64,000 nucleotides of DNA from an uncultured bacterium (GTDB lineage Bacteria; Cyanobacteriota; Vampirovibrionia; Gastranaerophilales; Gastranaerophilaceae): contig CACZFL010000013.1 of assembly GCA_902780525.1 (NCBI GenBank), positions 1-64,000 on the forward strand, read 5' to 3'. Made by a program: the position numbers and the translations under genes. This document shows, in pieces, positions 1,564 through 53,351 of the stretch (the first letter of the stretch is position 1; every line of letters starts with the position of its first letter). The notes below the pieces were generated by a model that saw only the letters and a list, made by a program, of their open reading frames with translations, searched no databases and was not told where the DNA came from.

Positions 1564-1595
1564 ATTATAAAGCCAAAATACGTCAGATATGGTCG
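1564..1595 (-). promoter_or_regulatory. Island promoter 1 (dyad box + -10)
   Basis: Minus-strand box CGACCATATCTGACG (1581-1595), 11 nt, TATAAT (1564-1569). It drives 1004-1528. No TTGACA-like -35 is present. Confidence 0.8.
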
Positions 1596-1605
1596 CTATT
1601 TTTTA

Positions 1606-2874
1606 TTATTTAATATCTTTGATATCATAATCTTTTATATTTAATTCGTTATAGCGCATTTTTATTGCATCATATAACGTTTTACATTCCGGACTCACAC
1701 CTTCAAGGTGATAGACACCAGTAGTTTGGTTTTTCATACAAAGAAATGGTGCATATTTAACATTATTTAATTTAAGAGTTTTATTTGTACGAAATGATAC
1801 CATTTTTCTTGGTGGAACAAAATCATGCATATCAATAAGTTTATACTTCGATTTCTTCCACCATTCATTTTCAGGATAATTTTCCCAACTATCGATTACT
1901 CTCCCATACAGCATTAATTTTTCCATACCTATTTTTTTAATTGCCAAAGTTCTAACATCAACATTTTTGATGCTTAAAATCCTTTTAATATCAAGTTTCT
2001 CAGGTGGGGTGTTATATAGCCAATTTGGAACATTGATACAGTTCAGATAAGAATATTGACGATTATCTATTTTATATGAGAAATTTTCTTTTAAATTTTT
2101 GCAAACTTTTTTAATAACATAACAAGTATTGTTTTTATCGTCATAAAACAGTCCAAAAGCAAATTTTGACCTTTCTAAAAAGTTAATATATCGATTTGAC
2201 ATATTAAGATCTATTATTTTATTTGCATGCAAATTAAATTTTGTGCGATATTGTCTCGACATACAATGTTCAAATATTATTGAACCACCAAAGCCTATTG
2301 TAAAAAGTTTTTCCAGATTATTATCAAAAATTTGAGGCTTTTGGTAAAATTTGTATTTAAATAATTCATCGCTGATAGTTTTGTAAATTGAATTTTTTAT
2401 ATGTAGAAAACCATTCATTTCTTCTAATATTTTAATATCTGGCTTTGTTAATTCCGGATAAAGCGGTTTTACAAAAGTATAAAAAAATTCATAGCATAAA
2501 TCCATATAATATTCATCGCTATAATACTGCACATCATTTATCTGTAATGTTTTTATTGTGCCTTTTTTTATGCCATATTTTTCTGTAATAAAATCAAAAT
2601 CTTTATAATGAGGAATCTCTATGACTATAATATTTTTTGTATTAATATTAAATCGATTTTTTATGTGCGAAATAACTAATTCTTTTTGTATTTCTCTTCC
2701 GCAAATAAAAAAATTATCAACTTTATTTAAGACAAATATTGAATCAAGATTCTTGGGAGTAACTAAAGTACAGCAATTTTCATAATACGATGATGATGGC
2801 AAGCGTATAAGTTTCATCATTTCAATATAAACTGAACTTGTCATTGTAGTATTTAATATGTAAATTTTGCTCAT
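1606..2874 (-). CDS. DUF6745-like protein, paralogue 1 (422 aa)
   Basis: The C-terminal ~180 residues contain VPNWLYNTPPEKL, an R-x-L-x-x-K-x-G block and a final MKNQTTGVYHLEGV...CKTLYDAIKMRYN, which resembles the 'NPSTG-xx-H-xx-V-P-P...EA' ending I associate with DUF6745. It is a tandem paralogue of 2892-4142; the last ~70 residues are nearly identical, while the N-terminal ~250 residues differ. It is third in an operon with that gene and 4146-4493 (GAGG ribosome site, 17-nt gap). DUF6745-type genes have no proven function that I know of. The family call is moderate; the paralogy is certain from the sequence. Confidence 0.7.
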   Translation of the reverse strand: MSKIYILNTTMTSSVYIEMMKLIRLPSSSYYENCCTLVTPKNLDSIFVLNKVDNFFICGREIQKELVISHIKNRFNINTKNIIVIEIPHYKDFDFITEKYGIKKGTIKTLQINDVQYYSDEYYMDLCYEFFYTFVKPLYPELTKPDIKILEEMNGFLHIKNSIYKTISDELFKYKFYQKPQIFDNNLEKLFTIGFGGSIIFEHCMSRQYRTKFNLHANKIIDLNMSNRYINFLERSKFAFGLFYDDKNNTCYVIKKVCKNLKENFSYKIDNRQYSYLNCINVPNWLYNTPPEKLDIKRILSIKNVDVRTLAIKKIGMEKLMLYGRVIDSWENYPENEWWKKSKYKLIDMHDFVPPRKMVSFRTNKTLKLNNVKYAPFLCMKNQTTGVYHLEGVSPECKTLYDAIKMRYNELNIKDYDIKDIK

Positions 2875-2891
2875 AATTGCCTCATTTAAAA

Positions 2892-4142
2892 TTACTTAAT
2901 ATCTTTTATATCGTAATCTTTTATATTTAAGCCGTTATAACGCATTTTTATTGCATCATACAGCGTCTTGCAGCGAGGGTGTATGCCTTCCAAGTGGTAG
3001 ACACCTGTGGTTTGGTTTTTCATATATAAGAATGGTGCATAGGAAAACCTCTCAGCAATACCCCTATCTATGCCATCTAGATCTCTTTTTCTTCTTGACG
3101 GTATAATTTCATGCATATCTATAATTTTATATTCTGATTTTGCCCACATCTCATTATCAGGATAGTTTTCATATGTATCTACTACTGTTCCGAACACAAC
3201 GAGTCTATCAACACCAATTTTTCTGACAAACTCCGCTTTTACATCAGCATTTTGTAAGAGCAAATAATCCTGCGGATTCAATTCTTCTGCAGGTGTAACA
3301 TAGAGCCATTTAGGAACTTCTATCCTTTCAAAAAAGAACCTTTCTTTTTCTCCATAGCGGTAGTACATTTTTGTATAATTATCTTCAATTTTCCATTCAT
3401 CAGGTTTTTTAATAACATGGCAAGTGTTTGTATCCTTGCCATAATACATAGCTATAACGTCAAAAGTTTTTTGATACCAATCCCAGAAAATCCGACTTTC
3501 TTCACTAAGTCTGCAACCTTCAAAATTGATATAATAAAGTCTTTCGTATTCTTTTCCGTACTGTATTATTCCGCCAAAATTGTTATTACGATTTATTAAA
3601 GCACCATATCGCCTAGGAAGTGGGTCTTGATATGGAAGCCCATATGGACGGTAATAAGGTATTTCTGTTCTTATTTCTTTATCAATTTTGTTTAAATATC
3701 GTCCAACGAGACATCTATAGCCTCCTCTTGGTGCTGGTTCCCATAATTTATTAGGGAACCACCATTTTAGTTCCTCAATAATATTTATATTCGGAGCTTT
3801 AGGATAATTTTTTAAACGACGATTATTGGTTAGTATAAATTTTTCATAAAACTCCAAACACAAATTTTCAATTTCTTTGTTTGATAATTTATTCGGTTCA
3901 AATGCCTTTTGGTACAAAAAATCACGCCACGGCTTTATTCGTTTTTCTTTTTCAGCTTCATCTGTTTTTCTTTTTAGTTCAGCATGAATGCGCCTGTTTG
4001 TTTTAAGTTCTTCCAATTCCATCAAAATAGCTTTTGGTGATTTTGAATTTAAAACAACGTAATTATTTTTAGAATCTAATTGTTGAAGTTCAAGTGCAAT
4101 ATCTTTTGGATTTTCTGAATTTATAATATAAATATCTGCCAT
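2892..4142 (-). CDS. DUF6745-like protein, paralogue 2 (416 aa)
   Basis: This tandem paralogue of 1606-2874 shares VPKWLYVTPAEEL, the ENYPDNEMW-x-KS block and the ending MKNQTTGVYHLEGI...TLYDAIKMRYN. The N-terminus has two similar segments ending ALELQQLDSKNNYVVLN and ILMELEELK, i.e. an internal repeat, then a charged region. It is second gene of the operon, 3 nt after 4146-4493, with a GAGGG ribosome site. The near identity of the two C-termini and divergence elsewhere suggests gene conversion or selection on a shared partner surface. Confidence 0.7.
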   Translation of the reverse strand: MADIYIINSENPKDIALELQQLDSKNNYVVLNSKSPKAILMELEELKTNRRIHAELKRKTDEAEKEKRIKPWRDFLYQKAFEPNKLSNKEIENLCLEFYEKFILTNNRRLKNYPKAPNINIIEELKWWFPNKLWEPAPRGGYRCLVGRYLNKIDKEIRTEIPYYRPYGLPYQDPLPRRYGALINRNNNFGGIIQYGKEYERLYYINFEGCRLSEESRIFWDWYQKTFDVIAMYYGKDTNTCHVIKKPDEWKIEDNYTKMYYRYGEKERFFFERIEVPKWLYVTPAEELNPQDYLLLQNADVKAEFVRKIGVDRLVVFGTVVDTYENYPDNEMWAKSEYKIIDMHEIIPSRRKRDLDGIDRGIAERFSYAPFLYMKNQTTGVYHLEGIHPRCKTLYDAIKMRYNGLNIKDYDIKDIK

Positions 4143-52787: not shown

Positions 52788-52798
52788 AACGCTAACTC

Positions 52799-53299
52799 CT
52801 AAATAATCTGATTATAAATATTTATAATTATATCATTTATATCAATAAAAATAACTTTTTCGAGGCAATTATTATTGGCAATGAATTCTTTTACTGTTTC
52901 TGCTGCGATCTTGCACGCTTCTTCTAACGGAAAACGATAGACTCCACAGGAGATGGCAGGAAAAGCAATTGTTTTAATTCCGTTTTCTTTTGCAAGATTT
53001 AAAGCTGTTGTATAGCAGGATTTCAAAAGTTTTCTTTCATTGGAATTGCCGCCTCTCCATATAGGGCCGACTGTGTGAATTACAAATTTTGCAGGTAAAT
53101 TATATCCTTTTGTAATTTTAGACTGACCGGTTTCGCAACCATTCAGTGTTCTACATTCCTCCAATAATTTGCCCCCAGCAGCGCGATGTATTGCACCGTC
53201 AACTCCGCCACCACCAAGCAAAGAAGTATTTGCGGCATTCACAATAGCATCAACTTCTAACTTTGTTATATCGCCTTTTAAAACTTCAATTTGTGTCAT
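52799..53299 (-). CDS. Macrodomain ADP-ribose/O-acetyl-ADP-ribose hydrolase (166 aa)
   Basis: DAIVNAANTSLLGGGGVDGAIHRAAG, IHTVGPIWRGG and IAFPAISCGVYRFPLEEA are the MacroD/YmdB signature, including the catalytic loop. It hydrolyses ADP-ribose adducts. First gene of the operon 53,299 to 50,774. The nearby RES and Fic genes also act on nucleotide cofactors, but no direct link is shown. Confidence 0.92.
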   Translation of the reverse strand: MTQIEVLKGDITKLEVDAIVNAANTSLLGGGGVDGAIHRAAGGKLLEECRTLNGCETGQSKITKGYNLPAKFVIHTVGPIWRGGNSNERKLLKSCYTTALNLAKENGIKTIAFPAISCGVYRFPLEEACKIAAETVKEFIANNNCLEKVIFIDINDIIINIYNQII

Positions 53300-53319
53300 A
53301 ACTTCCTCCTCTTTATATT

Positions 53320-53351
53320 ATCATAAATTAGGATTACGTCAGAAAAGGACA
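53320..53351 (-). promoter_or_regulatory. Island promoter 24 (rightmost)
   Basis: Minus-strand box TGTCCTTTTCTGACG (53,337-53,351), 11 nt, TATGAT (53,320-53,325). It drives the macrodomain operon. It lies only 7 nt from the stop codon of the transposition gene 53,359-54,603. Confidence 0.88.

Follow-up and report, generated by a model that had tools for sequence, protein, structure and literature searches.

The window analysed here comprises bases 1–64,000 of contig CACZFL010000013.1 (C13 in our numbering; 64,804 bases) from GCA_902780525.1, the 2.09-Mb, 35-contig genome assembly of an uncultured bacterium of the Gastranaerophilaceae, and it carries an island with genes for restriction, a reverse transcriptase, Mza-type defence and cell division. 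Twenty-four promoters on this island share a 15-bp imperfect dyad (the box), and two of the genes behind them encode regulators of the WYL family, here called WYL-A and WYL-B. Known WYL activators serve a handful of promoters, as does DriD, or dispersed repair genes, as does PafBC; in this genome a whole island appears to belong to a DriD-like factor. Among the papers listed we found no description of a WYL-box defence-island regulon, judged by titles and the beginnings of abstracts. The list of promoters helps to ask how the genes of a defence island come on in concert, and it opens to study both the tie of defence to DNA damage and division arrest and the role of a stand-alone sigma region 4. 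Switching as a unit would let the cell launch a whole emergency programme at once.

Results

At each of the 24 sites, which run from position 1564 to position 53351, the 15-bp box (TGTCCG-N3-CTGACA) is followed after exactly 11 nt by a -10 hexamer, as the original prediction, made from the letters of this DNA, had claimed. The hexamer reads TAnnnT at 23 sites, and only the site at 10445 has a poor one (AATCAT). The 11-nt distance in all 24 is part of the definition of the set; among 63 strong boxes, TAnnnT stands at distance 11 in 23, and the runner-up, distance 6, has it in 13. With at most three mismatches the dyad matches the window 65 times against 19.8 expected from shuffles, a count that covers both strands and includes many dyads twice. 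No -35 is recognisable, again as predicted: TTGACA with at least 4 of 6 matches at 16–18 nt from the -10 occurs at none of the 24 sites, whereas it accompanies 9 of the 25 exact TATAATs that precede other genes in this genome. With the -10 numbered from -12 to -7, the dyad occupies positions -38 to -24 and has its centre near -31. The distal half reads NNNCC and the proximal half, on the opposite strand, NNNCA at all 24 sites, which gives the dyad a direction. Both halves keep G2 and C4 (GxC-N7-GxC) at 21 of 24 sites, and 8 of the 48 halves are of the CGAC type; these letter counts are partly given by construction because the matrix picked the set. An open reading frame (ORF) of at least 80 amino acids starts within 100 nt of the -10 at 21 sites (counted by hand), and the other three precede a 20-codon ORF (33390), an S-adenosylmethionine (SAM) riboswitch leader (33236) and no ORF (11440). 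The claim that flanking genes use TTGACA-17-TATAAT fared less well and is weakly borne out: with at least 5 of 6 matches in both hexamers, this arrangement precedes 1 of 9 ORFs in 53.4–64 kb and, at each of two other loci, 2 of 16, compared with 6 of 43 in the island itself.

The boxed units are given here with the position weight matrix score of each site. On the left, 1564..1595 (-; 18.9) precedes the unit 1004-1528, and 4521..4552 (-), the weakest site of all (11.6), precedes 4146-4493 and the genes below it. On the plus strand, 4618..4649 (22.0) stands before an SMC/RecF-like ATPase (4676-5200; Pfam), 5437..5468 (23.0) before a truncated FtsZ/tubulin-domain protein (ATG at 5491; Pfam) and 6042-6614, and 7777..7808 (22.8) before a DnaJ-domain protein (7815-8162; Pfam). 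The site 7704..7735 (-; 18.3) precedes 7298-7684; this unit, 1004-1528 and the SMC-like gene all have boxed orthologues in the related locus L050. Four minus-strand sites lead into a metallo-beta-lactamase/RMMBL protein (9416..9447, 18.5; gene 8151-9383; Pfam), the unit 9430-10377 (10445..10476, 18.3; -10 AATCAT), a DnaB-like ATPase (12508-13329) with a reverse transcriptase (11591-12496; site 13355..13386, 20.4; Pfam, the reverse transcriptase also by PADLOC), and an AAA protein (14378-16411) with an FtsZ paralogue (13419-14351; site 16448..16479, 19.5; Pfam). The AAA gene has a boxed orthologue in L042. Behind 19608..19639 (-; 17.7) lies a UvrD-helicase/PD-(D/E)XK protein (16497-19571; Pfam), whose relatives are boxed in L042 and L043 and unboxed in L045, L056 and L079. 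The promoter 11440..11471 (+; 17.4) has no downstream ORF on its strand; it aims at an ORF-free stretch (11440-11560) beside the reverse transcriptase gene, and a non-coding RNA from it is possible.

In the middle of the island, 24077..24108 (-), the second weakest site (13.0) and one with a weak -10, precedes WYL-B and McrB/McrC-like genes, and it is nearly unchanged before a 90%-identical orthologue in L050. The sites 24740..24771 (-; 21.5) and 25220..25251 (-; 19.5) precede 24343-24762 and 24812-25198, and 25302..25333 (+; 24.3) precedes WYL-A (25366-26340) and the genes that follow; orthologues of WYL-A have a box in front in L041, L042 and L175 and none in L043 and L044. Next come 28039..28070 (-; 19.1) before 27699-28028, and 30957..30988 (-; 21.5) before an FtsI/PBP2-like (29232-30941) and an FtsW/RodA-like gene (28073-29239; Pfam), with boxed orthologues in L042 and L057. 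The transcript from 33205..33236 (-; 25.2) has as its leader the SAM riboswitch (33010-33137, -; Rfam), upstream of an uncharacterised gene (32412) and a DUF2130 gene (31030; Pfam). The 20-codon ORF (33256-33318, -) lies under one of the strongest boxes, 33359..33390 (-; 23.8). The remaining sites are 34513..34544 (-; 25.3) before 34127-34480; 38438..38469 (-; 24.2) before a sigma region 4 protein (37969-38340; Pfam) and then 36485-37945 (TPR-like by reading); 48652..48683 (-; 25.0) before methyltransferase/Mza-type defence genes (38987-48584; PADLOC, Pfam); and 53320..53351 (-; 20.5) before 52799-53299, whose product we take to be a macro-domain protein.

Restriction and defence are represented among this cargo by the McrB/McrC-like genes and the Mza-type set (MzaB-E models, PADLOC), and the reverse transcriptase matches retron-type models. 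The UvrD/nuclease, the SMC-like ATPase, the FtsI-like and FtsW-like proteins and two FtsZ-like proteins are boxed as well. Another FtsZ is kept on contig C3. The island paralogue (13419-14351) shares 46% identity with it along 283 residues, lacks the C-terminal tail and has IIHAEFKQIK where the C3 protein has LINVDFADVK, a stretch that we take to be the T7 loop. The second FtsZ-like product (5491-6039), also in a boxed unit, is a truncated GTPase domain. An FtsZ-like protein acting as a division-blocking decoy, which would fit a damage response, is a guess.

The stand-alone sigma-70 region 4 protein (37969..38340, -; Pfam) has 123 amino acids and holds region 4 only, with 64% identity over 81 residues to the host's 366-residue sigma factor. 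The host helix TRERIRQ, presumably the one that reads the -35, is replaced by KKDEIQL, and the flanks are nearly identical. Proteins of 123–142 amino acids with this region-4-only layout recur (18 aligned); some of them keep the ordinary helix, as does a shorter protein of genome G016. In viral contigs, 323 relatives of sigma region 4 were found and 80 kept, and these are probably mostly ordinary sigma factors or fragments.

Across its own genome the box keeps mostly to the island. A matrix built from the sites gives, above a score of 16, 32 matches in the first 53.4 kb (some being one dyad read from either strand), none in 53.4–64 kb and none in 240 kb of other contigs (twelve 20-kb stretches). 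With at most one mismatch the box pattern matches 15 times in the whole genome, 13 of these on the island contig, and the reversed control not at all; the other two matches lie on C1, beside a third WYL gene, and on C24. Two more outlying sites, with more mismatches, are found on C1 (score 18.1) and, before a 49-codon ORF, on C3 (score 19.1). The box-11-TATAAT arrangement was hence not found before many core genes, either in the 240 kb of other contigs or among the few matches genome-wide, and the prediction of a dedicated set holds in this respect. Chance in AT-rich DNA is ruled out by the shuffles and the 240 kb of other contigs. As to a phage or plasmid origin, positions 24001–48000, the sole part compared, have no near match in phage or plasmid records. 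The strict box-TATAAT pattern has no exact match in viral contigs; one viral contig has a WYL relative, with a box 55 bp before that gene.

Two of the three matches of the WYL domain model in the genome are WYL-A (25366..26340, +) and its paralogue WYL-B (23085..24059, -; 37% identical), with boxes 64 bp and 49 bp before their start codons; the third gene, on C1, is flanked by boxes. On C6, WYL-A finds a fourth and weak match, which covers the helix-turn-helix part only (E 1.9e-4) and was left aside. By Pfam and PDB sequence search both island proteins are WYL-WCX regulators: five PDB chains match WYL-A (best E 2.1e-39) and WYL-B (best E 4.8e-44) over the whole length, four of them titled DriD and the fifth (7u02) titled WYL domain-containing protein. 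The winged helix-turn-helix, three-helix bundle, WYL and WCX domains are all present and the relation to DriD is full-length, which amounts to a DriD-type architecture. An AlphaFold model of WYL-A has a predicted local distance difference test score of 82 and a predicted template modelling score (pTM) of 0.48, and a fold search with it places DriD at ranks 1–11, PafBC at 12–15 and BrxR/CapW from 16. Five loci in genome records hold relatives of WYL-A: three stem from the gut of goat or roe deer, one, labelled Bacteroidales, from the rumen of roe deer, and one from ‘Cyanobacteria bacterium UBA1221’; one clustered relative is named Candidatus Gastranaerophilales. The island's host is accordingly a probable gut inhabitant.

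The link between box and WYL gene extends to other genomes. In a first set of 19 WYL genes from outside this genome with enough upstream DNA, some of whose loci had been fetched for their box matches, 13 have a box within 330 bp upstream, compared with a mean of 0.15 and a maximum of 2 when the twelve box columns were permuted 300 times. For a second set of 26 loci a WYL match was the sole criterion; upstream DNA was too short in one, and 13 of the other 25 genes have a box within the same distance (permuted matrices: mean 0.19, maximum 2), including all six relatives at 51% identity or more and 3 of 14 from a clade marked by CSRRSAERMK. Through the order, the box accompanies the WYL family: the exact pattern matches 195 times, spread over 96 of the 286 genomes, against 7 matches of its reversed control, the family occurs in 126 of 286 (match at 1e-20), and a box is present in 72 of these 126 and in 24 of the 160 others. 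The resulting odds ratio of 7.6 assumes that both surveys cover one and the same 286 genomes and, because the genomes are related, does not count independent events. Among the places listed, at least nine genomes (G119, G075, G175, G196, G251, G290, G167, G217 and G260) have a box no more than 200 bp from a WYL gene. Relatives of boxed genes are boxed in 18 of 33 cases (8 of 15 without WYL genes, hand count) and relatives of unboxed genes in 2 of 16, in loci that were fetched for boxes or WYL and with some WYL loci counted once per WYL query. In several relatives the better box aims away from the WYL gene, at a divergent gene. A half-site code, with TGTC read by the WYL-A type and CGAC by the WYL-B type, was considered and is not clean by eye across WYL loci.

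Discussion

The 24 sites form one conserved promoter family, with the dyad likely read by the DriD-like WYL-WCX activators of the island. The original prediction had named no reader; the sequence comparisons make a DriD-related WYL-WCX protein the likely one. The evidence favours its reading of a dedicated regulon, with an activator-like site where a -35 would be, over a repressor site added to a normal promoter, and matches genome-wide are few. It had also held that one factor could switch the whole island, and this may be so, with two WYL proteins encoded in the island and a third elsewhere. A WYL dimer would bind the box and activate rather than repress. A signal would free the dimer, which would then occupy the box and keep the housekeeping RNA polymerase in place at promoters without a -35, so that the -10-only promoters would fire and the defence and division genes of the island would come on together. 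The box of WYL-A is oriented in the sense direction, and WYL-A would thus drive its own promoter in a positive loop. The weakest step of this scheme is the trigger, which could be DNA damage or phage attack.

The comparison with known WYL regulators draws on excerpts of the cited papers and holds for what these contain. DriD of Caulobacter crescentus is a homodimeric activator with the consensus ATACGAC-N7-GTCGTAT and an asymmetric stance on DNA. It covers the -35 region of five promoters, always equally far from the -10, and these have only 1–2 of 6 matches to a -35 (PMC12340889). It is the nearest solved protein and a full-length WYL-WCX relative of WYL-A, and it shares with the island a 4-7-4 dyad over the -35, the lack of a -35, a constant distance to the -10 (compared for its constancy) and a site beside the regulator's own gene that is able to aim at a divergent gene. 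In contrast to its about five dispersed promoters, 24 are packed here in one island, TGTC halves outnumber CGAC, the box of the WYL-A promoter points towards WYL-A itself, there are two WYL paralogues in which the arginine-rich WYL stretch is not kept, and the cargo consists of defence and division genes. Single-stranded DNA is the ligand of both DriD and PafBC. PafBC of mycobacteria works by sigma adaptation on a non-palindromic motif, at the so-called RecA-NDp promoters (PMC11804915, PMC6789036). It resembles the island pair as a WYL-WCX factor that gives the housekeeping polymerase its own kind of promoter and as a pair of paralogous subunits. However, that motif is contacted by one subunit near -26, a form that the 24 sites, with a dyad centred near -31, do not have, and in both sequence and fold WYL-A is nearer to DriD. 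Another activator of the WYL class, SiwR, has its palindrome upstream of the -10 (PMC10693628).

The WYL proteins could instead be repressors of the BrxR/CapW type and the box an operator that silences the defence genes, which we consider rather unlikely. BrxR represses a defence island through inverted repeats, with CapW cited alongside, and both are, like WYL-A and WYL-B, WYL regulators encoded in defence islands (PMC9122601, in the excerpt); the genes here are defence genes too, and BrxR and CapW appear in the fold search. However, in the system described those repressors have one or two sites, and the repeats of BrxR are found downstream of the -10 (same source), whereas here a box at fixed distance stands on two dozen promoters. 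A repressor would not need a fixed distance, there is no -35 to block, and the sequence kinship is with DriD, an activator: BrxR/CapW are absent from the PDB sequence matches of WYL-A and rank below DriD and PafBC by fold.

Another island protein could also read the box, either the sigma region 4 protein or one like MotA, the WYL genes being mere members of the regulon. Middle promoters of phage T4, which MotA serves, have a box near -30, TATAAT and no -35, and the original prediction had drawn this comparison; it stands for the geometry alone, since the protein family is unrelated and no MotA family occurs among the Pfam matches of 50 window proteins. The gene for the sigma region 4 protein is itself boxed, its relatives form a family of 123–142 amino acids, and G016 has boxes and a sigma region 4 protein and lacks a WYL match. 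In G042 and G045, however, which have boxes beside WYL genes, 3 of 4 and 2 of 3 of the listed region 4 matches lie in frames of about 350 amino acids and are hence ordinary sigma factors, and DriD sites take the very form seen here, GxC halves spaced 4-7-4 in a dyad. We regard such a reader as improbable. That box and -10 together make up the promoter of an alternative sigma factor would explain why element and spacing are fixed, but the -10 is of the ordinary TATAAT type, the element is a dyad and an 11-nt spacer gives too little room for regions 4 and 2 of a single sigma factor, which leaves this idea with hardly any probability.

Several observations weigh against the reading of the box by DriD-like activators of the island. 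Sites occur outside the island in its own genome (two on C1, one on C24 and one on C3). Six of the 19 WYL genes of the first set (L006, L008, L012, L043, L044 and L054) and 11 of the 14 from the CSRRSAERMK clade are unboxed, and 15 of the 33 relatives of boxed genes have no box above a score of 14. Of the 160 genomes in which the WYL family has no match at 1e-20, 24 still have boxes, which implies either incomplete assemblies or other readers; G016 has three boxes and no WYL match even at 1e-3, and G008 has three boxes with a weak partial WYL match beside one. Half-site letters map uncleanly on the recognition helix across relatives, the pTM of the model is only 0.48 and its full-length DriD fold matches have template modelling scores near 0.45. 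Lastly, the arginine-rich PRSWRLDRM of DriD is FRTYHINEI in WYL-A and PYVYSLHKL in WYL-B, which may speak against a DriD-type pocket for single-stranded DNA.

A bolder scheme, unlikely as it stands, would make the island a take-over kit, in which a WYL-A/WYL-B dimer on the directional dyad and the sigma piece in place of the host's region 4 would fire defence genes and FtsZ decoys with a dead T7 loop upon DNA damage or phage attack, and would halt division. If true, it would be a bacterial counterpart of the phage MotA/AsiA appropriation, spread across the order.

Some features lie at the borders of the island or beside its boxed genes. A direct repeat (1-300 and 59691-59990; 85% identical, 59.7 kb apart) flanks the island and may be an insertion mark or a duplicated gene piece. 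Next to the last boxed unit stand a Mu-type transposase gene and an ATPase gene (53359-57381), both unboxed, and a Mu/Tn7-like element may carry the island. At 27333-27692, a 60-nt tandem repeat encodes a secreted-looking protein of repeated GYNAHGEYVPTS units, and genes that start like this one stand behind boxes in L042 and L057.

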